From Pseudopedobacter saltans DSM 12145 (GTDB taxonomy: Bacteria; Bacteroidota; Bacteroidia; Sphingobacteriales; Sphingobacteriaceae), in contig NC_015177.1 in assembly GCF_000190735.1 (NCBI RefSeq), positions 124,001-188,000 on the forward strand: a stretch of 64,000 bases of DNA. The letters are read 5' to 3'. Position 1 is the first letter of the stretch. Each line of letters begins with the position of its first letter. The notes beneath the pieces were generated by a model that worked only from the letters and a program-made list of their open reading frames with translations, was not told the DNA's origin and did no database searches. A program made the translations under genes and the position numbers. Below are positions 28,074 through 36,237 of this stretch, one piece after another.

Positions 28074-28439
28074 ATGTCAAAAATAAAAATAGCCATTCAA
28101 AGAGCTTATGACGCACCTGCGGAAGAAGAAGAATCTTTCCGGGTTTTGGTTGACCGACTTTGGCCACGGGGACTAAAGAAAGAAAATCTGGAACTTGATT
28201 TTTGGGCAAAAGATATAAGTCCTTCTGCAGAGGTGCGGAAGAAATATCATAGTCATCCTGATGATTTTGCAGCTTTTAAAAAAAGTTATTTAAAAGAACT
28301 GGAAAGTAATCCCAATTTGGATTTTCTTACAAAGGAGTTGGGGAAGCATAAGCGTATAATATTATTATATGCATCAAAGGATAAAGAACATAATAATGCA
28401 GTTGTTCTGAAAGAATTTTTAGAAAAAAAAATGGGTTAG
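28074..28439 (+). CDS. DUF488 family protein
   Basis: A 121-residue protein with the DUF488 signature: FRVLVDRLWPRGLKKENLEL, DFWAKDISPSAEVRKKYHSH, F-KYLKEL and IILLYASKDKEHNNAVVLKE. The family is of uncertain function. Cytosolic, with no partner. It is the last plus-strand gene before the minus-strand respiratory island. Confidence 0.88.
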   Translation: MSKIKIAIQRAYDAPAEEEESFRVLVDRLWPRGLKKENLELDFWAKDISPSAEVRKKYHSHPDDFAAFKKSYLKELESNPNLDFLTKELGKHKRIILLYASKDKEHNNAVVLKEFLEKKMG

Positions 28440-28530: not shown

Positions 28531-28845
28531 TTAATTTCCGATTATTCTGATAACCATTCCGTCGGGAATATCATTTAATCTAATCTGGCAAGCTAGCCTG
28601 CTGTTAGTTTCACTATGAGGAAGGACATCAAGCATAGATAATTCTATTTCCTTTGGTTCCGGAATTTGCTCTTCTTTTTCTAAAACAGCTATATGACAGG
28701 TCGCACATAAGGCAATACCTCCACAGCTGGCTTCAATATCATAATCGGCGGCTTTCAAAAATTCCATCAGACTCAGATTTATACCTTCAGGTATTTCCAA
28801 TTCCTTTTTCCTTTCGGCTTGATCGATCACAATTATCATGGACAT
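28531..28845 (-). CDS. [2Fe-2S] ferredoxin (adrenodoxin type)
   Basis: A 104-residue ferredoxin. Cluster ligands are C41, C47, C50 and C86, with the C-x5-C-x2-C spacing of the adrenodoxin/Isc group (ASCGGIALCATCHIAV, then RLACQIRL). It carries single electrons and should be reduced by the flavoprotein whose gene ends 3 bp upstream, so the pair is probably co-expressed. Last gene of the minus-strand island. It is not an isc gene by context; the partners here are oxygen- and NO-binding proteins. Confidence 0.9.
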   Translation of the reverse strand: MSMIIVIDQAERKKELEIPEGINLSLMEFLKAADYDIEASCGGIALCATCHIAVLEKEEQIPEPKEIELSMLDVLPHSETNSRLACQIRLNDIPDGMVIRIIGN

Positions 28846-28848
28846 AAT

Positions 28849-29853
28849 TTACAGAGGATTTATACCGTAAACGGTCGTGTATTTAAAGGTTAGTTTCTCG
28901 TTTGGATATACATACTTAAAAGCACTTTGGGCCATTAAAGCTGCTTCGTGAAAACCGCAAAGAATAAGTTTTAATTTTCCTTCGTAAGTGTTAATATCGC
29001 CAATAGCATACACACCTTCAATATCTGTAGAATAATCCTTGGTATTTACCTGTATAGCATGTTTATCTATATTTAGCCCCCACTCGGCTATAGGCCCAAG
29101 TTTAGGTGTTAAACCAAAGAGCGGGATGAAATATTCGGCATCTATTTTTATAGTGTTTTTATGATGATCGAGTAGTTCTACGCCTTCTAGCCAATCTTCA
29201 CCATACAAATCGACCACATTAGTTTTCAATACCAGATCAATTTTATTTTGCCGGGCCAATTCGAATACCTTGGCAGCGGAATCAGGCGAACCTCTGAAAG
29301 TATCTCCACGATGTATCAATATAACACGTTTTGCAATATCGGCTAAATGAATGGTCCAATCCAAAGCAGAATCTCCTCCACCAGCAATTACTACTTTTTT
29401 ATCTCTTAAGATCTCTGGTGATTTGATTAAATACAGAACACCTTTAGTTTCGAACTCTTCCAGAGAATCAATAGCGGGTTTTCTCGGTTCAAAGCAACCC
29501 AATCCCCCTGCGATGACAATAGCTTTAGCGGCTATTTTAGTGTTGTCACTGGTTACTATCTCAAATATTCCCTCTTTGTTTTTATGAAAATATTCTACCC
29601 GTTCTCCTAACGTAAAAGTTGGAGAGAAAGGATGGATCTGTTCCATTAATTTGTCTACCAGTTCCTGCGCAGTTATTGTAGGATATCCGGGAATATCATA
29701 AATTGGTTTATGAGGGTAAACTTCTGAAAGCTGACCGCCAACTTGCGGCAAGGCATCAACCAAATGGCAGCGCATGCGTAAGAGACCAGCTTCAAAAACT
29801 GCAAAAAGTCCAACAGGTCCGGCTCCAATAATACATATATCACAGTTGATCAT
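28849..29853 (-). CDS. Ferredoxin-NADP reductase, thioredoxin-reductase-like type
   Basis: About 334 residues. It has an FAD site at the N-terminus (CDICIIGAGPVGLFAVFEAG), an NADPH site near 155-165 (VVIAGGGDSALDW) and the FAD C-terminal motif GVYAIGDINTYEGK. There is no redox CxxC of thioredoxin reductase, which fits the type 2 ferredoxin/flavodoxin-NADP reductases. I start at the ATG at 29853 because an upstream start would overlap the cupin gene. It should reduce the adjacent ferredoxin with NADPH; delivery onward to the truncated hemoglobins or hemerythrin is inferred from the operon. Confidence 0.88.
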   Translation of the reverse strand: MINCDICIIGAGPVGLFAVFEAGLLRMRCHLVDALPQVGGQLSEVYPHKPIYDIPGYPTITAQELVDKLMEQIHPFSPTFTLGERVEYFHKNKEGIFEIVTSDNTKIAAKAIVIAGGLGCFEPRKPAIDSLEEFETKGVLYLIKSPEILRDKKVVIAGGGDSALDWTIHLADIAKRVILIHRGDTFRGSPDSAAKVFELARQNKIDLVLKTNVVDLYGEDWLEGVELLDHHKNTIKIDAEYFIPLFGLTPKLGPIAEWGLNIDKHAIQVNTKDYSTDIEGVYAIGDINTYEGKLKLILCGFHEAALMAQSAFKYVYPNEKLTFKYTTVYGINPL

Positions 29854-29864
29854 CTTGCTAGTTT

Positions 29865-30170
29865 TTAACCTTGTATCAATAAACAAATGCTGTCTTCCAG
29901 AGAATACACCGAATGAATAACATCGGTTGGAATTTCTAAACTGTCGAAGCTTTCCAGATTAATCTCTCTGTATTTTTCTTTATAAACTACATTGCCCTTG
30001 ATGACGAGCAATGTAGTAGGTATATTGGTTTTGTGCTCCTTTAGTGTGATACCTTCTTTTAGTCCTAAAACAATTGTTTTACTATCTGTTCCTTTTTTTA
30101 AAACTTTAATTATCGGTTTGTTGGAAGAAGGCAGCTGACTTAGTATTTCATTGATCGTATTGTCTTTCAT
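29865..30170 (-). CDS. Small cupin-domain protein
   Basis: A 101-residue single cupin. The pattern GITLKEHKTNIPTTLLVIKG, then VYKEKYREINLESFDSLEIP and TDVIHSV follows cupin_2 motifs, although the usual metal-binding His set is incomplete (H27-type EHKT and IHSV remain). Similar small cupins accompany NO- and O2-related genes in Bacteroidota. Function unknown; perhaps a binding or sensor protein. Twelve bp before the reductase. Confidence 0.7.
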   Translation of the reverse strand: MKDNTINEILSQLPSSNKPIIKVLKKGTDSKTIVLGLKEGITLKEHKTNIPTTLLVIKGNVVYKEKYREINLESFDSLEIPTDVIHSVYSLEDSICLLIQG

Positions 30171-30209
30171 GTATCCACTTTTTTAAATTGGCAGTTTAGG
30201 TCATCATCA

Positions 30210-30539
30210 TTATTCCAGCACTTTGATTTTTAAACCATCCAAATGTTCATCAATTAATATCTGACACGCTAAACGGATATTTTTGTTTTGCATATGTTGT
30301 CTTTCTATCGTAGTTCCTTCATTCCTGTCTAAAAATGTAGGTTGCGTTTTAAACTCTAATATTTCTATTAAACAGGTTCCACATTTACCCATTCCCAGGC
30401 AGTCTCCGAAGTCATCAGGATATAGATTGTCATAAATCAGCATCATGAGATTCCGGTATTCATTATAATATGTGTTGATATTATAATAATCTCCTCCATA
30501 AATAATGCCGATACTGATGTTTTTGTCTCTATTTAGCAA
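30210..30539 (-). CDS. Second [2Fe-2S] ferredoxin-like protein
   Basis: A 109-residue protein with ligands C47, C53, C56 and C92, the same C-x5-C-x2-C-x35-C spacing as the ferredoxin at 28531. The context FGDCLGMGKCGTCLIEI and IRLACQILID is ferredoxin-like. The N-terminus is longer and Tyr/Asn-rich. Two distinct ferredoxins in one operon suggest separate electron acceptors. Spacing is 9 bp after hemerythrin. Confidence 0.85.
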   Translation of the reverse strand: MLNRDKNISIGIIYGGDYYNINTYYNEYRNLMMLIYDNLYPDDFGDCLGMGKCGTCLIEILEFKTQPTFLDRNEGTTIERQHMQNKNIRLACQILIDEHLDGLKIKVLE

Positions 30540-30548
30540 AACGATTAA

Positions 30549-31022
30549 TTAATGTTTCCAAAATTCAACATGGTAATCATCTGCAAAATCATCCTTCTCG
30601 TTTTTAAGTGTTTCGCCAATTTTTTCCAGCTCTTCTTTCGAAAGTGTTTTTTCAAGGAAAGGAAAAACCTCACGTTCCTCCAATCGTATATGTTGATTTA
30701 CTCTATCAATTAAAGTTTGAAATATTGTCTTTTGAGGATTATCGGAATCCTTGATTTGCGAAATGATACCATTAATCTGCAGATGCTGCTGTGTGACGAG
30801 CTCGCAAAGTGAACTGCTGCTTCGCGCAAATAACAGTTCTTCTTCCTGATTAAAGTGTTTTTGCATATGCTCATTCCAGAAAAATAATACATAATCTTTT
30901 AGGATAAGAGGAATATCCTTCTTTAAACCCTCTTTTATTTTCCAGCAAAAGAGTAGAGTTAAATGATGGTCCCTGGATAATTGAACTAAAAATTCTGACC
31001 TCTTAATAGGTGCTTTTTTCAT
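30549..31022 (-). CDS. Hemerythrin-like (HHE) di-iron protein
   Basis: A 157-residue four-helix protein of the hemerythrin HHE family. Candidate ligands: H19/H20 (SRDHHLTLLF), H52, H56 and E60 (FWNEHMQKHFNQEE), H80 (TQQHLQING), and H111 with E115/E116 (VNQHIRLEEREVFPFLE). It should bind O2 or NO at a non-heme di-iron site. Its start is 2 bp from the end of a truncated hemoglobin gene. Related proteins protect against NO or repair Fe-S clusters; the exact role here is inferred. Confidence 0.85.
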   Translation of the reverse strand: MKKAPIKRSEFLVQLSRDHHLTLLFCWKIKEGLKKDIPLILKDYVLFFWNEHMQKHFNQEEELLFARSSSSLCELVTQQHLQINGIISQIKDSDNPQKTIFQTLIDRVNQHIRLEEREVFPFLEKTLSKEELEKIGETLKNEKDDFADDYHVEFWKH

Positions 31023-31024
31023 GA

Positions 31025-31408
31025 TTATTCCTCCGGAATTTGTTTTACTGCTTTCATAATTCTTGCAATGCTGAATGCCCTTTTCTTTGCATTCGAAGCA
31101 ATTTTACCTGTGAAAAGCTCATCAACAGTTTGGTTAAAAAGCGATAGCCATCTGTCGAAATGCTCTTTATCTACCTTTAACGGAAGGTGACTAGGCAGTG
31201 GATCTCCCCTGTAAGTTCTGGTATAAAGCAATAGTGTAGACCAGAACTGAATCATTTTTTCTAAATGAGGATCCCAGTCTTTTATTATAGCATTGAAAAC
31301 AGATGATAAAAGCTCATCCCTTCTGATTTTATCATAAAAAGTATTTACCAATAATGTGATATCCTCTACGCTTTCAATGTCTTTCTCTGTATTGATTGTT
31401 GCTACCAT
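31025..31408 (-). CDS. Group III truncated hemoglobin 1
   Basis: A 127-residue globin. The sequence TFYDKIRRDELLSSVFNAII, MIQFWSTLLLYTRTYRGDPL, SHLPLKVDKEHFDRWLSLF is typical of group III truncated hemoglobins, including the conserved HFDRWL and FW pairs. It should bind heme and react with O2 or NO. A paralogue lies 5 bp upstream. It has no reductase domain of its own, so it needs an external electron source; the ferredoxin and reductase genes in the same operon could supply this. Confidence 0.9.
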   Translation of the reverse strand: MVATINTEKDIESVEDITLLVNTFYDKIRRDELLSSVFNAIIKDWDPHLEKMIQFWSTLLLYTRTYRGDPLPSHLPLKVDKEHFDRWLSLFNQTVDELFTGKIASNAKKRAFSIARIMKAVKQIPEE

Positions 31409-31413
31409 ATCCT

Positions 31414-31806
31414 CTAAATAATAACCTTGTCAGCACCGCCACGCATATTTTCCAATCTTGTAAGAAACATAGAAGCCATAAGTTCCGAGCGATGTTTGCA
31501 GTCTTCAGCAATTTCTCCGGAAAAGAAATGGTCTATGGTTTGCTGAAATAATTCCAGCCAACGTTCGAAATGATTCTTTTGTATAGGAAGCGGAGCATGT
31601 TTGGCGAAGGGATTTCCTTTAAACCCGGGGACACCGAACAGCGCTGCGTTCCAAAATTTATACATTTTATCCAGGTGAGTTGGCCAATCCTGAATGGCAT
31701 TGTCGAAGATTGGTCCAATAAGTTCATCTTGTTGTACCTTGTAGTAGAAATCGTCAACAAATATTTTAATGTCATCTATATTTCTAATGTCTGTTTTCAT
31801 TCGCAT
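31414..31806 (-). CDS. Group III truncated hemoglobin 2
   Basis: A 130-residue paralogue: DFYYKVQQDELIGPIFDNAI, KMYKFWNAALFGVPGFKGNP, KHAPLPIQKNHFERWLELFQ. It keeps the group III pattern but differs widely from the neighbour, so the two are not a recent duplication. The start may be the Met at 31806 or the one two codons later. It lies 55 bp downstream of the small membrane protein at 31862. NO dioxygenase or O2-binding activity is the family expectation. Confidence 0.9.
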   Translation of the reverse strand: MRMKTDIRNIDDIKIFVDDFYYKVQQDELIGPIFDNAIQDWPTHLDKMYKFWNAALFGVPGFKGNPFAKHAPLPIQKNHFERWLELFQQTIDHFFSGEIAEDCKHRSELMASMFLTRLENMRGGADKVII

Positions 31807-31861
31807 CTCTTTTAACTTTCTATTACCTGTTCTCTACTGTCGGCTATTTCTAATTCCTACG

Positions 31862-32272
31862 TTAAAATAAATTGATAGCGGACGAAGTGGTGAAATAATA
31901 AATGGTCCAGGCAATAAAGAGAATTAACAAAATAAATATCCAAAAAGGTATGCTCTGTGGAGATTCACTTCCCGATATCAAAAAGTTTTTTTGGCTCCCT
32001 TTGCCATAAGCATTAATCATGATTGGGATTTTTCCATCTACAATTGCATTTTCCTTTATTCCTTCTACTGCAATGGACGGACCATTTCTTACTTCGAACG
32101 GAATTAACCTGACACCTTCTTTTCCCTGCGGATCTTTACTTACTATTTTTAGTAAATGTTTGCCATCGACCAATTTGGAGGTATCAAGCTCGAAATTTAC
32201 AGGTGCAAATAATTCGGCAACAGGGGTGATATTATCATCTATAAACAGAAATATTTTACTTTTTTCTTCCAT
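31862..32272 (-). CDS. Tail-anchored protein with Ig-like domain in the cbb3 cluster
   Basis: A 136-residue protein of unknown function. Residues 1 to about 105 look like a beta-sandwich (KIFLFIDDNITPVAELFAPV, VDGKHLLKIVSKDPQGKEGV) and 108-128 form one membrane helix (IPFWIFILLILFIAWTIYYF). There is no signal peptide and no CxxCH, so it is not itself a c-type cytochrome. Position between oxidase and hemoglobin genes suggests an oxidase accessory role; the beta domain plus helix reminds one of FixH/CcoH, but I cannot support that name. Confidence 0.6.
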   Translation of the reverse strand: MEEKSKIFLFIDDNITPVAELFAPVNFELDTSKLVDGKHLLKIVSKDPQGKEGVRLIPFEVRNGPSIAVEGIKENAIVDGKIPIMINAYGKGSQKNFLISGSESPQSIPFWIFILLILFIAWTIYYFTTSSAINLF

Positions 32273-32278
32273 ACCAAT

Positions 32279-32533
32279 TTAGTTTATAAAGAGGTTCTTA
32301 ATGTGAGATTCCGATTTTTCTCCTGGTTTTATCAAATACTTAAGGGAATAAATCAATGTAATTAAAACCAGGATTGCGACAACAGAAATAATGATATAAT
32401 CCCAATTATTTTGAGGTCCGGCCCCATGTGTTATGCCTTTCAATACTTTTGGTTGTTGCTTTTCGCATACAGGGCATGCCCACAAAGCAATATGAGAAAA
32501 CAATAAATAAAAGATTAACAATAATTTTTTCAT
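32279..32533 (-). CDS. Small membrane protein with exported CPVC motif
   Basis: An 84-residue protein. It has a signal peptide (1-18), then CPVCEKQQPK at about 20, then a membrane helix (about 46-67). The CxxC pair would face the periplasm near the membrane. Its start is 11 bp after the di-heme cytochrome gene. A role in copper or heme delivery, or thiol chemistry, for the oxidase is possible; no family recognised. Confidence 0.65.
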   Translation of the reverse strand: MKKLLLIFYLLFSHIALWACPVCEKQQPKVLKGITHGAGPQNNWDYIIISVVAILVLITLIYSLKYLIKPGEKSESHIKNLFIN

Positions 32534-32544
32534 CTTACGCCTGT

Positions 32545-33546
32545 TTACTTTTTGACTTTTTTAACCAGTTCATCTATTTGCTGGGTAGTGACTTTTGGAG
32601 CATTATTACCCCAGTTTGTTTTTACATAATTCATGATAGCTGTAATTTCTTCCGGAGAAAGGTTGTTGTTTGTGCCAACGGGAGGCATTACTGCATAACC
32701 TTCACTTATTCTGCCACTGTACCCATTCATTATAATATCCACCATCGTTTTGGGATCCTCGTTTAATACTACTTTGCTGTCTTTTAAAGCCGGAAAGGCA
32801 CCTTTTAAACCTTTTCCATTTTCCTGATGGCACATCTGGCAATTATTTGCATATAATGGAGCACCATCCAGTTCTTCTTTTTTTCCGTTGCTCGCAGTTA
32901 CCGTTCTTATTTCCTTTTTATATAAGAATATTGGTTTAGCAACAGTTTCCGGAAGATCGGCCTGAACCAAAGATTGCAGGTAAGCAATTAAATGCAAAGC
33001 TTTTGGCGTAGCCACAATTTTATTATGCTTGTTTGTGAGATATTCTTCAGGAACGGTAACTACAACATCGGTAGGTAACACATTTTCTTTTTCTTCAAAC
33101 AGCCATGGATAAGATGGCATAATGGATTCTTTAACCAATATTCTTGGATTATAAAGGTGTGTAAGGTTCCATTCCGAACTGGGTTGTCTGGAACCGATAT
33201 TAGTTAAATCAGGTCCGGTTCTTTCCGTTCCCATTAGTGTAGCTGTATTTCGCCAAATATCAGTTCTGGAAATTCCAGCATAATCGGCTGCAATACTTGG
33301 GCGTTTTCCCCAGGTTTTGTCCATATCTACATTTCTTACCTGCTGGGTATGACAGGCCATACAACCTTCAGATACGAAAATGGCCTTACCCATTTCGGCT
33401 TCTTTACTTAAAGGTTTTGAGTTGGGCAATGGTGCGTAGTTTTTTTCATTATCTAAAGCGGGAATAATACATACTAAAATGGTGAGTGCAACAAAAAGGG
33501 TAGTTGCGGTTATATAAAGATTTTTATGGTTATTAAAGTATTCCAT
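32545..33546 (-). CDS. ccoO: cbb3-type oxidase cytochrome c subunit: CcoO fused to a CcoP-like domain
   Basis: A 333-residue membrane-anchored cytochrome with one N-terminal helix (about 10-30) and two heme c sites. The first, C62-MA-C65-H66, followed by WRNTATLMGTERTGPDLTNI and SIMPSYPWL, is CcoO (FixO). The second, C236-QM-C239-H240, with GKGLKGAFPALKD and AVMPPVGT, is an extra cytochrome c domain like that of CcoP. No separate ccoP gene exists here, so this protein may do both jobs, taking electrons from the donor and passing them to CcoN. The start is 12 bp after the ccoN stop. Confidence 0.88.
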   Translation of the reverse strand: MEYFNNHKNLYITATTLFVALTILVCIIPALDNEKNYAPLPNSKPLSKEAEMGKAIFVSEGCMACHTQQVRNVDMDKTWGKRPSIAADYAGISRTDIWRNTATLMGTERTGPDLTNIGSRQPSSEWNLTHLYNPRILVKESIMPSYPWLFEEKENVLPTDVVVTVPEEYLTNKHNKIVATPKALHLIAYLQSLVQADLPETVAKPIFLYKKEIRTVTASNGKKEELDGAPLYANNCQMCHQENGKGLKGAFPALKDSKVVLNEDPKTMVDIIMNGYSGRISEGYAVMPPVGTNNNLSPEEITAIMNYVKTNWGNNAPKVTTQQIDELVKKVKK

Positions 33547-33558
33547 GATTATGGGTGA

Positions 33559-35685
33559 TTATATAGCGTTCTCCTTATTGACGGTTTTGTTAAGTCTGTT
33601 AATTGCCATTTCGTTGATATCTATTGATTTGTGATCGGATAACATTTTATATAGGTTATAAATGAAAAACAAGTGAGATAACCACATCAAACTTCCGCCG
33701 ATTGCCCGCCATAGCCAATATGGAGCCATTAATACTATACCTTCGATAAATGGCTTTCCTTCCATCCATAACATGCCTTTTAAAGTGCTGCCATACATTA
33801 GGGGTACAGTATATATCAATAAACCAATTATTGCTAACCAAAAATGTATACCAACCGTTAATTGCGGTGCTTCTTTACCTGTCAATCTTGGGATCAAGGC
33901 ATAAATGGCAGCCCAAAGGAAAAAGCTGATGATGCCGTACATGGTTAAGTGAGAGTGGGCAACAGTAAAATCGGTAAAGTGCCATAACAGGTTGGTGTAC
34001 CTGAATGCTTCCGCAGTTCCTTGTAATGACCCCGTGAAGTAAAAGACTATTCCAACAAGGAAGAAAGGAAGCGTATAGCTCTGACCGATCTTATACCAGG
34101 AACCATTAAATGTTAACAGGAAGTTGGCTGTGCCAGCAGCAACAGGAATAACCATGCCCATACTACCTATAATAGCTGTAGTTTGTAGCCACCAGGGAAT
34201 CGAACTGAATATAAAATGGTGAGTACCTATCAAAGTATAGAAAAGAATCTGTGCCCAAAATGCAAGAATGCCCAGACTATAAGAATATATTGGTTTATTA
34301 AGTTGTTGAGGTAAAAAGTAATATACAATACCTAACGTAAATAACATAAACCACATGCCTACTCCCTGGTGCATATAGTAACCCTGCACTATGGTTTCTC
34401 CTAAACCATGTTGCCAAAAAGGTAAATAAGCAACCAGTGAAATTACAATGGTAAACAGGATGGAGGCGATCATATACCAATTGGAAATATAAATTTCCTT
34501 TGTTTTTCTTTTGGCTATGGTTTTAATAAAATTGATGACCGTTATAACCAGCGCAATGGCAAAAGGAAGCATAATTGGCCATATATATTCCCTGTATTCT
34601 CCACCACTATTGTTTATTCCTGCCATTAGAGATAAAGTACCAGATATGACCGTGATATTAATCAGGGCGAAAGCCCACCAGCCCAACTTTATGTTGTGAA
34701 TAGGAGTATTACTTACACGTGGGATTATATAATGCCCGAGTCCAAGCATGGCTAAAGAGGCCCACCCCCAAAACACAGCATTTGTATGGACGGGCCTCAA
34801 TCTGCCAAAACTCAACCAGCTAATACTATCGGCTTCCGGGGCCATAAATTTTATGCCCAGATATTCTCCTATCGTAGTTCCGAATAATAGCCAAAATGCG
34901 GCAGCACCTATATACCAAATAATCAGTTTGCTTAGAGCCGGAGATATTTGATGCCTTTGCAGCGCTTTCTTCTTTGCGGCAACCAAAGGCAATGGAGCCT
35001 GATGTTCAATGTCGTTTAATAATCCAATGGTATCCTCGGCAGGTATATTGCCAGAAAGTTGATTGTCGGGAATACGGAAATCCAGTGCTTTTTTTCGTTT
35101 AATAAGCTCTTGTTCTATTGCTTCATCCTCGTTACTCTCCAAAAATTCAGATAGTTTTATCGCTTCGCTGATGTCCTGCTTTCTTTTGTATTTATCCAAA
35201 GCATTAATCAGCTTAATAATCAATATGGTTATTCCAGCTAATACCGGAATAAGTATGAGTATAATGGTAATAATAATTCCTCCGCTGGAAAGGGGGGAAT
35301 CTCCGTTTTGAGTCTGAGAAAAGGAAGTTTGAGCGCTAAGATTTAGCAAAGCAAAGATTGCGATACCAAGCAGTCTATTTATATGTTTTGTTTTTGGTTC
35401 TTTTTTATAGCTTAAATAGGTGTCAATTTGTTCTATATTAAAGTTGCTGATACGTTTTTTAAATCTTAAAGTATCATCATCATTATTGTTTAAAGTGTTT
35501 TTAGTTACGGTATCTGCTTTGTTTTTGATATGTAGCACAGCCATTAATATAATTAGTAGTGCGAAAAACAGACTCCCCATCACACTTATTTGAATAATAA
35601 ATGAATTTTTGCCTTCGGATGCACTACAAATTGAAGGGAGGGCAATCAAAAAAATTATAAAAAGTGATCTTATCGGGATTTTCAT
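33559..35685 (-). CDS. ccoN: cbb3-type oxidase catalytic subunit with long N-terminal extension
   Basis: A 708-residue protein; usual CcoN is about 470-560. The catalytic core starts near residue 250. Candidate ligands: H300 (GRLRPVHTNAVFWGW, low-spin heme), H439 (YMHQGVG, CuB), H489/H490 (IGTHHF, CuB), H577/H579 (TVAHSHLTMYG, hemes). The cbb3 tyrosine region YYFLPQQ (455-461) is kept, and the Glu pair of cNOR is absent (HQGVG rather than HLWVE), which favours O2 over NO reduction. Residues 1-240 carry two units of signal-like helix, short loop, membrane helix and charged tail. It pumps or consumes protons while reducing O2 at high affinity. Confidence 0.88.
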   Translation of the reverse strand: MKIPIRSLFIIFLIALPSICSASEGKNSFIIQISVMGSLFFALLIILMAVLHIKNKADTVTKNTLNNNDDDTLRFKKRISNFNIEQIDTYLSYKKEPKTKHINRLLGIAIFALLNLSAQTSFSQTQNGDSPLSSGGIIITIILILIPVLAGITILIIKLINALDKYKRKQDISEAIKLSEFLESNEDEAIEQELIKRKKALDFRIPDNQLSGNIPAEDTIGLLNDIEHQAPLPLVAAKKKALQRHQISPALSKLIIWYIGAAAFWLLFGTTIGEYLGIKFMAPEADSISWLSFGRLRPVHTNAVFWGWASLAMLGLGHYIIPRVSNTPIHNIKLGWWAFALINITVISGTLSLMAGINNSGGEYREYIWPIMLPFAIALVITVINFIKTIAKRKTKEIYISNWYMIASILFTIVISLVAYLPFWQHGLGETIVQGYYMHQGVGMWFMLFTLGIVYYFLPQQLNKPIYSYSLGILAFWAQILFYTLIGTHHFIFSSIPWWLQTTAIIGSMGMVIPVAAGTANFLLTFNGSWYKIGQSYTLPFFLVGIVFYFTGSLQGTAEAFRYTNLLWHFTDFTVAHSHLTMYGIISFFLWAAIYALIPRLTGKEAPQLTVGIHFWLAIIGLLIYTVPLMYGSTLKGMLWMEGKPFIEGIVLMAPYWLWRAIGGSLMWLSHLFFIYNLYKMLSDHKSIDINEMAINRLNKTVNKENAI

Positions 35686-35714
35686 TGCTTTAAAAATATA
35701 TTAATACCTTTTTG

Positions 35715-35723
35715 TCTTTTATT
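35715..35723. promoter_or_regulatory. Half-site TCTTTTATT before the oxidase operon
   Basis: Identical to one arm of the palindrome in the rrf2 promoter (36212-36237), placed 30 bp before the ccoN start. A second arm is not evident. Candidate Rrf2 half-site. Confidence 0.35.
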
Positions 35724-35736
35724 ATTTTAAATTTTT

Positions 35737-36174
35737 TTATTTTTTCAATGTAGAGTTTCCTAGAATTAAATCCTCGTTGAAATCTTCTATAGTTGTGTTT
35801 TTAAGCATTTTAATAATATCATTCCTGATTTTTTTAAATTCATGATGAATAGGACAGGGGTTGCTTTCAGAACAGTAATTTAATCCCAAACCGCAACCGA
35901 CAAATATTTTATCTCCATCTATAGCTTCAACGATGTTAGATAGTGGTTGCTTTAATGTAATGCTATCCATATAGAAACCGCCATTTGGCCCCTTTGCAGA
36001 TAGAACGATACCTTTGCGACTTAAATCCTGCAGTATTTTTGCTAAAAAGTGCTCAGGGGAATTGATTCCCTGGGCAATTTCCTTTATACCAACTTTTTTG
36101 TCCTCCGAAGTTTTATAGGCGATAAAGAAAACAGCTCTCATCGCATATTCGCAAGTTTTTGAAAAAACACTCAT
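35737..36174 (-). CDS. Rrf2-family Fe-S regulator (NsrR/IscR-like)
   Basis: A 145-residue winged-helix regulator. The N-terminal DNA-binding part is SKTCEYAMRAVFFIA, then VGIKEIAQGINSPEHFLAKI and KGPNGGFYM. Three cysteines that could hold an Fe-S cluster are C94, C101 and C107 (VGCGLGLNYCSESNPCPIHH). Rrf2 proteins of this kind sense NO, Fe-S status or redox state. It is encoded 51 bp upstream of ccoN on the same strand, with a palindrome in its own promoter and a matching half-site before ccoN, so it probably regulates itself and the whole island. Confidence 0.9.
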   Translation of the reverse strand: MSVFSKTCEYAMRAVFFIAYKTSEDKKVGIKEIAQGINSPEHFLAKILQDLSRKGIVLSAKGPNGGFYMDSITLKQPLSNIVEAIDGDKIFVGCGLGLNYCSESNPCPIHHEFKKIRNDIIKMLKNTTIEDFNEDLILGNSTLKK

Positions 36175-36187
36175 ATATTATATAATG

Positions 36188-36218
36188 CAAAGATAATCTT
36201 AAAGCTGAAAAAATAAAA
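36188..36218 (-). promoter_or_regulatory. Promoter of rrf2
   Basis: On the minus strand TTTT (complement of 36215-36218), 19 bp, then TATCTTTG (complement of 36188-36195), a perfect TAnnTTTG. Transcription would start about 8 nt before the rrf2 ATG. Confidence 0.6.
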
Positions 36219-36237
36219 GAGTTTTTTATCTTTTATT
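36212..36237. promoter_or_regulatory. Putative Rrf2 operator palindrome
   Basis: AATAAAAGA-N8-TCTTTTATT, a perfect 9-8-9 inverted repeat overlapping the -33 box of the rrf2 promoter, the expected place for autorepression. Confidence 0.55.

Follow-up and report, generated by a model that had tools for sequence, protein, structure and literature searches.

The subject of this study is an island of genes within a 64,000-nucleotide stretch of the Pseudopedobacter saltans DSM 12145 genome (the window; NC_015177.1, positions 124,001 to 188,000), in which an Rrf2-family regulator heads a divergent cbb3-type oxidase, two truncated haemoglobins, a hemerythrin, two ferredoxins, a cupin and a ferredoxin-NADP reductase (FNR). 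The genes occupy 28531-36174 on the minus strand, and the unit reaches 36236 once its operator and promoter are included. An initial annotation had described eleven tightly packed minus-strand genes; the packing and the strand were right, with intergenic gaps of 2-55 bp, and the number of genes is twelve. Every part that it named was recovered by gene calls and domain searches. Pfam and NCBIfam back Rrf2, COX1/CcoN, FixO plus cytochrome c, two Bac_globin proteins, hemerythrin, two Fer2 proteins and the pyridine nucleotide-disulphide reductase, and the cupin match lies below the cut-off. The one exception to the gaps is an overlap of the FNR and cupin genes, which appears when FNR begins at TTG and is gone if the in-frame ATG at 29853 is taken as its start. 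From the 5′ end, the features are as follows.

36213..36236, minus strand: operator, inverted repeat ATAAAAGA-N8-TCTTTTAT; exact copy, kept upstream of rrf2 in relatives
36188..36195, minus strand: putative Bacteroidota -7 promoter element TATCTTTG, 17 nt downstream of the operator
35737..36174, minus strand: Rrf2-family regulator, C94-X6-C101-X5-C107 (PF02082, E 2e-24)
33559..35685, minus strand: cN, divergent CcoN-like catalytic subunit with a 250-amino-acid N-terminal extension (PF00115, E 1e-82; best solved match 3MK7 CcoN, E 3.5e-62)
32545..33546, minus strand: cOP, fusion of CcoO (FixO) and a mono-haem cytochrome c, two CXXCH (PF02433, E 3.5e-29; PF00034, E 5e-16)
32279..32533, minus strand: cQ, small one-helix subunit of 84 amino acids, CPVC following the signal peptide; conserved between cOP and cH
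31862..32272, minus strand: cH, CcoP-like subunit of 136 amino acids without haem, beta-rich domain and one helix (homologue alignment; model)
31414..31806, minus strand: group III truncated haemoglobin 1 (2IG3, E 2e-17)
31025..31408, minus strand: group III truncated haemoglobin 2 (2IG3, E 8e-14)
30549..31022, minus strand: hemerythrin-like protein, two HxxxE motifs (PF01814, E 3e-8)
30210..30539, minus strand: fdx1, [2Fe-2S] ferredoxin, CX5CX2CX35C (PF00111, E 6e-5)
29865..30170, minus strand: small cupin-like protein (PF07883, E 0.004, below the cut-off); homologues at several cN loci
28849..29886 (ATG start possible at 29853), minus strand: FNR, thioredoxin-reductase fold (5YGQ, E 2e-100)
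28531..28845, minus strand: fdx2, [2Fe-2S] ferredoxin, CX5CX2CX35C (PF00111, E 4e-9)

Orthologues of cN were sought in 201 genomes of the family. Besides the window's own genome, 31 of the 201 carry one (54-65% identity across most of the protein); a second, well-separated set of matches is ordinary CcoN, with 31-34% identity over the core only. The window genome also encodes an ordinary cbb3 oxidase, separate from cN, and a further COX1 protein that is taken as aa3. Scanning GTDB genomes yielded 470 confirmed cN candidate loci, and the best 80 of these 470, which were read, are labelled Pedobacter, Parapedobacter, Chitinophaga, Dyadobacter, Flavihumibacter and others. On average, cN proteins are 30% identical to the ordinary cbb3 of Bacteroidota; between the latter and the Pseudomonas type of cbb3 the figure is 55%. 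A maximum-likelihood tree, whose root is uncertain because of a long outgroup branch, separated all cN proteins (support 93) from all ordinary cbb3 proteins (support 100). Judged by identity and tree placement, the cN oxidase is a deep sister clade of cbb3, a rebuilt subfamily and not an ordinary cbb3.

Comparison of 111 cN with 21 ordinary sequences (P. stutzeri numbering) located the difference. The haem and CuB histidines (H60, H207, H257, H258, H345 and H347) and the helix VII tyrosine Y251 are invariant in all 111 cN proteins, as are Glu122 and Glu125. S240, H243, E323 and T215, which we take to be the K-channel positions of cbb3, are S, H, E and T in 21/21 ordinary enzymes and G, A, Q and M in 111/111 cN proteins. 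The metal-ligand histidines and Y251 are also kept in another seven relatives, of which five belong to other classes of the phylum; all seven have G240 and Q323, residue 243 is A or G, and residue 215 is T or M. Nitric oxide reductase (NOR) presumably carries the metal-ligand glutamate of its FeB site at position 211, near H207, and has no active-site tyrosine; in 111/111 cN proteins position 211 is glycine and Y251 is kept, so that both NOR hallmarks are absent. In cbb3 enzymes the cross-linked tyrosine is reached by way of a few polar residues (PMC8780969). The replacement of S240, H243 and E323 suggests that K-channel proton delivery in cN is changed or absent, and consequently that pumping is little or none. 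"cbb3-type oxidase", as the initial annotation had it, is apt for the CcoN fold, the metal ligands and the tyrosine, and fails to convey that this is a deep, rebuilt subfamily standing beside the genome's ordinary cbb3.

The accompanying subunits also depart from the cbb3 pattern of a mono-haem CcoO and a di-haem CcoP. Two CXXCH motifs are present in cOP in 107/107 relatives, that is, CcoO is fused to a mono-haem cytochrome c, and the CcoP-like cH has no CXXCH in 106/106. Because homologues of cH from other classes run on into a cytochrome c domain (274-333 amino acids in total), cH is identified as a CcoP-like protein whose haem domain is missing in this lineage. An AlphaFold model of cH consists of a beta-rich domain and one helix at moderate confidence (pLDDT 65.5, too weak for a fold search). 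At four loci (L057, L058, L059 and L063) a separate gene for 96-111 amino acids lies between rrf2 and a shorter cN; part of the N-terminal extension of cN may accordingly be a fused small subunit.

The neighbourhood of cN was defined as the 8 kb around it, and 60 loci of the GTDB scan were compared with 18 ordinary cbb3 loci. Within this distance of cN we found rrf2 at 48 loci, a globin at 42, RIC or hemerythrin at 37 and fdx1 at 29, against 0, 0, 2 and 0, respectively, around ordinary cbb3. At least one gene of the nitric oxide (NO) set (globin, RIC, hemerythrin, fdx1 or COX1-like) is present at 50/60 cN loci and at 2/18 ordinary ones. The series cN-cOP-cQ-cH is nearly constant, and the conserved module lies on one strand. 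Thus, a core of cN, globin, RIC/hemerythrin and ferredoxin recurs far beyond chance. In relatives from other classes, genes for RIC, a 147-amino-acid membrane protein, DUF2249, COX1-like, FeS_assembly or globin also adjoin cN. The comparison of gene order across Bacteroidota that was proposed at the outset hence revealed a conserved neighbourhood (31/201 family genomes and many other Bacteroidota). No published description of the module was found in the literature searched, which left most subscription papers outside, and the initial annotation had likewise known of none. A membrane protein of 146-153 amino acids with no Pfam match recurs 3′ of the globin in cN operons (L041, L046, L068, L235:5024-5464 and others), and in one genome (G003) its gene stands alone behind an exact operator.

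For both globins the best solved match is Ctb, a group III truncated haemoglobin (2IG3), and Tyr B10, His E7, Trp E15 and His F8 of Ctb, which we take to be its haem-pocket residues, align with identical residues in both, bearing out the group III assignment made earlier. The two ferredoxins do share one cysteine spacing, as had been noticed. The top structural matches of the reductase are ferredoxin-NADP reductases, again as proposed, and its sole CXXC (CDIC) is N-terminal, beside the FAD motif, while the redox CXXC in the NADPH domain of thioredoxin reductase is absent. Across 93 cN neighbourhoods, fdx1 is present in 40, in 36 of them with a globin; FNR occurs in 5 and fdx2 in 4, each time beside FNR. 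The claim that an NADPH electron chain belongs to the conserved module is not upheld by these counts (FNR 5/93, FNR with fdx2 4/93), from which the NADPH-reductase-ferredoxin chain is a local, lineage-specific add-on outside the conserved core.

The Rrf2 regulator with three candidate cluster cysteines stood up well: of 82 relatives, 81 keep C94 and all keep C101 and C107 (CX6CX5C). The operator is present upstream of rrf2 as an exact copy in 34/82 loci and with at most three mismatches in 67/82 (1.4% in shuffled sequence), and in 17/29 loci without an adjacent rrf2 it is found at up to two mismatches. A scan of the window at up to two mismatches returned this site only. TAnnTTTG, represented here by TATCTTTG and taken by us to be the Bacteroidota -7 promoter consensus, lies 10-17 nt downstream of the operator in 72/84 sites (control, 2/84). 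With this spacing the -33 element would fall within the repeat's right half, so that binding of Rrf2 should repress. Scans for sigma-70 promoters and terminators gave chance-level results.

In the window genome as a whole, the motif at up to three mismatches is not enriched (236 sites versus 244 for the reversed motif), so exact and near-exact sites only were used for the genome analysis. There are just two exact copies, one at the island and the other at C1:4339913, about 60 bp upstream of a DUF2249-RIC gene that is followed by DUF2249, COX1-like and FeS_assembly genes. A site with one mismatch precedes the second RIC gene of this cluster, and NosD and NosZ are encoded close to it. Another one-mismatch match, at C1:1462545, lies inside a 486-amino-acid open reading frame and was treated as chance. 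The COX1-like gene encodes a 422-amino-acid membrane protein (L071:8866-10134; genome C1:4341865-4343133) that recurs between DUF2249 and FeS_assembly genes with the same operator. It has only a sub-threshold COX1 match in Pfam and no match in PDB; an identification as NnrS was dropped on these results, and the protein may be a distant haem-copper protein.

Across 40 further genomes, the reversed-motif control returned no exact site at all. Outside cN operons, exact operators in these relatives precede flavohaemoglobin (Hmp; divergent from an Rrf2 gene), NirK, qNOR (three genomes, in one of them behind an Rrf2 gene), NosD (two genomes), a RIC gene, the gene just before nosZ and a DUF2249 cluster, as well as the 146-amino-acid membrane protein known from cN operons; one site precedes a U32 peptidase. 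The placements before flavohaemoglobin, qNOR, NirK, NosD and RIC genes come from relatives that lack the oxidase. The tally leaves out three exact matches in genome G002 (C1:116896, C14:24348 and C56:48561), which are copies of the perfect palindrome ATAAAAGAAGCATGCTTCTTTTAT, probably a repeated element unrelated to the operator. These placements strongly support a link between the operator and NO genes that does not depend on the island, and the operon is probably part of an NO regulon, switched on by nitric oxide. The idea of an Rrf2-headed, NO-linked module in the initial annotation has gained from this, through operators that this genome and its relatives also place before NO genes, and through partners such as the RIC iron-centre repair proteins.

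Co-occurrence with denitrification genes was assessed in the 201 family genomes by within-genus permutation, and the p values are optimistic because species inside a genus are still related. NosZ is present in 18/31 cN genomes and in 39/170 others (p 0.0003), and the association also holds among qNOR-negative genomes (p 0.009); cN is weakly associated with NirK, qNOR and Hmp (p 0.01-0.02). Both of the two NirK-positive, qNOR-negative genomes carry cN. In the window genome, NosZ is present and no qNOR or NirK was found. A role of cN as a simple replacement for qNOR or flavohaemoglobin was rejected, as they co-occur slightly more than expected. The pattern fits NO handling and is compatible with NO reduction and NO-tolerant O2 reduction alike.

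We consider it fairly likely, from the gene content and the regulatory sites, that the island is an NO-inducible respiratory-defence operon. Rrf2 would hold an iron-sulphur (Fe-S) cluster on its three cysteines and bind ATAAAAGA-N8-TCTTTTAT, overlapping the -33 region, and would repress both its own operon and the distant RIC-DUF2249-COX1-like-FeS_assembly cluster; damage of the Fe-S cluster by NO would derepress both units. Going by their families, the group III globins, reduced via ferredoxin, would bind or oxidise cytoplasmic NO, and hemerythrin and the RIC proteins would buffer or repair iron centres. That electrons reach the globins from NADPH, in this genome perhaps through FNR and ferredoxin, is an inference. 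The divergent cbb3-type complex would replace NO-sensitive oxidases: two c-haems would feed its haem b3-CuB centre, which would continue to drain electrons under NO, and the chemistry of this sink could be NO-tolerant O2 reduction, conversion of NO to N2O, or both. It may be in this way that many Bacteroidota sustain respiration during NO removal. A "microaerobic oxidase coupled to globins", as first suggested, misses the likeliest link, namely that the oxidase itself tolerates or reduces NO.

Several points weigh against an NO-inducible defence operon. The Rrf2 protein scores 38.5 bits with the NsrR model (cut-off 182), the operator is unlike the NsrR motif gATGyAT-N5-ATrCATc, and the Rrf2 family also includes iron, redox and Fe-S status sensors. 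The link of the operator to NO rests on gene content, at least 10/60 cN loci are without the NO set, and about ten strains are in both the family and GTDB sets (for example, G011 and L077), which slightly inflates the pooled counts. The presence of Fe-S status sensors in the family would also suit a microaerobic operon, in which Rrf2 senses O2 or Fe-S status, cN is a high-affinity oxidase and the globins and hemerythrin deliver or buffer O2. cbb3 enzymes usually have high affinity and Ctb has been linked to O2 handling in Campylobacter; nevertheless, the same genomes have an ordinary cbb3 without such a neighbourhood, and the operator precedes Hmp, qNOR, NirK and RIC, which are NO genes and not low-O2 genes, and we judge this alternative rather improbable. 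It is also unlikely, in our estimate, that the NADPH-FNR-ferredoxin-globin chain for NO removal is the defining unit with the oxidase as a companion, as the initial annotation would have it. FNR and the two ferredoxins do adjoin the globins, fdx1 accompanies a globin in 36/40 cases, and FNR-type reductases have been proposed as electron donors to truncated globins (PMC3820574), but FNR and fdx2 are rare (5/93 and 4/93) where cN-cOP-cQ-cH is nearly constant.

The cN complex could also be chiefly an NO reductase, turning NO into N2O at haem b3-CuB without proton pumping and feeding the often-present NosZ, a possibility that we entertain with some doubt. It would account for the loss of S240, H243 and E323 while the metal ligands are intact, for the NosZ association in qNOR-negative genomes (p 0.009), for cN in both NirK-positive, qNOR-negative genomes and for a window genome with NosZ and neither qNOR nor NirK. 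However, cN invariably keeps the cross-linked tyrosine that typifies O2 reductases, glycine stands in 111/111 where NOR has its metal-ligand glutamate, qNOR and cN are not mutually exclusive, and the NirK argument comes from two genomes. A wider proposal, offered tentatively, is that Bacteroidota cN forms a separate C-family enzyme group for the reduction of NO, or of NO and O2, without the usual K-channel, which is induced via an undescribed Bacteroidota NO regulon and supplies the missing NO-to-N2O step in NosZ-bearing, NorB-lacking genomes.

The module joins the known themes of NO control by NsrR, an NO-resistant oxidase and an NO-reducing cbb3 to a distinct enzyme subfamily. With ordinary cbb3 (CcoNOQP) the cN complex shares the CcoN fold, the metal-ligand histidines, the helix VII tyrosine and the CcoO subunit; it differs in its approximately 30% identity, replaced S240, H243 and E323, CcoO-cytochrome c fusion, haem-free CcoP-like subunit, N-terminal extension and NO-type regulon. 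In Proteobacteria, Bacillus and Streptomyces, NO genes are under the control of the Rrf2 protein NsrR, which uses a different operator (PMC1274295). The NsrR regulon resembles the present one in the three-cysteine regulator and in targets of the flavohaemoglobin, NirK, NOR and RIC/ytfE type, and the placement of the operator here points to the same control of NO-detoxification genes, presumably through an NO-labile Fe-S cluster; the operator (ATAAAAGA-N8-TCTTTTAT, not gATGyAT-N5-ATrCATc), the cysteine spacing (X6, X5) and the inclusion of a cbb3-like oxidase are different. In Vibrio fischeri, the NO-resistant alternative oxidase (AOX) is NsrR-controlled and proposed to sustain respiration under NO (PMC5156696). 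It is likewise a terminal oxidase under an Rrf2-type NO regulator, but a di-iron quinol oxidase, whereas the enzyme here is a haem-copper one that shares its operon with globins and hemerythrin. The NsrR-controlled glbN-ferredoxin reductase operon of Legionella (PMC1274295, PMC3820574) also brings a truncated globin and a ferredoxin reductase together under Rrf2-type control, but its globin belongs to another group and it has no oxidase, ferredoxin or hemerythrin. The cbb3 of P. stutzeri reduces NO (PMC8780969), and the NirK-cbb3 region of SAR11, which also links cbb3 to nitrogen-oxide genes, has been proposed to do so (PMC12816887); that region has a canonical ccoNOQP and a CRP-FNR regulator, and globin, hemerythrin and Rrf2 are unmentioned in PMC12816887.

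If our reading is correct, a haem-copper enzyme has gone unrecognised in a large group of Bacteroidota, sequence models assigning it only to cbb3, and expectations as to the makers and consumers of NO and N2O, and as to respiration under NO, would change. The combination of replaced channel residues and an intact active site makes the enzyme a natural test case for proton uptake in cbb3 and for where O2 reductases end and NO reductases begin. The operator, of which no description for the phylum was found in the literature searched (most subscription papers lay outside it), is a simple handle for mapping Bacteroidota NO regulons. Beside the operon ends a DUF488 gene (28074-28439, plus strand); DUF488 is present at 25/117 cN loci, often within the operon, and at 0/21 ordinary cbb3 loci, possibly indicating a new NO-linked role.

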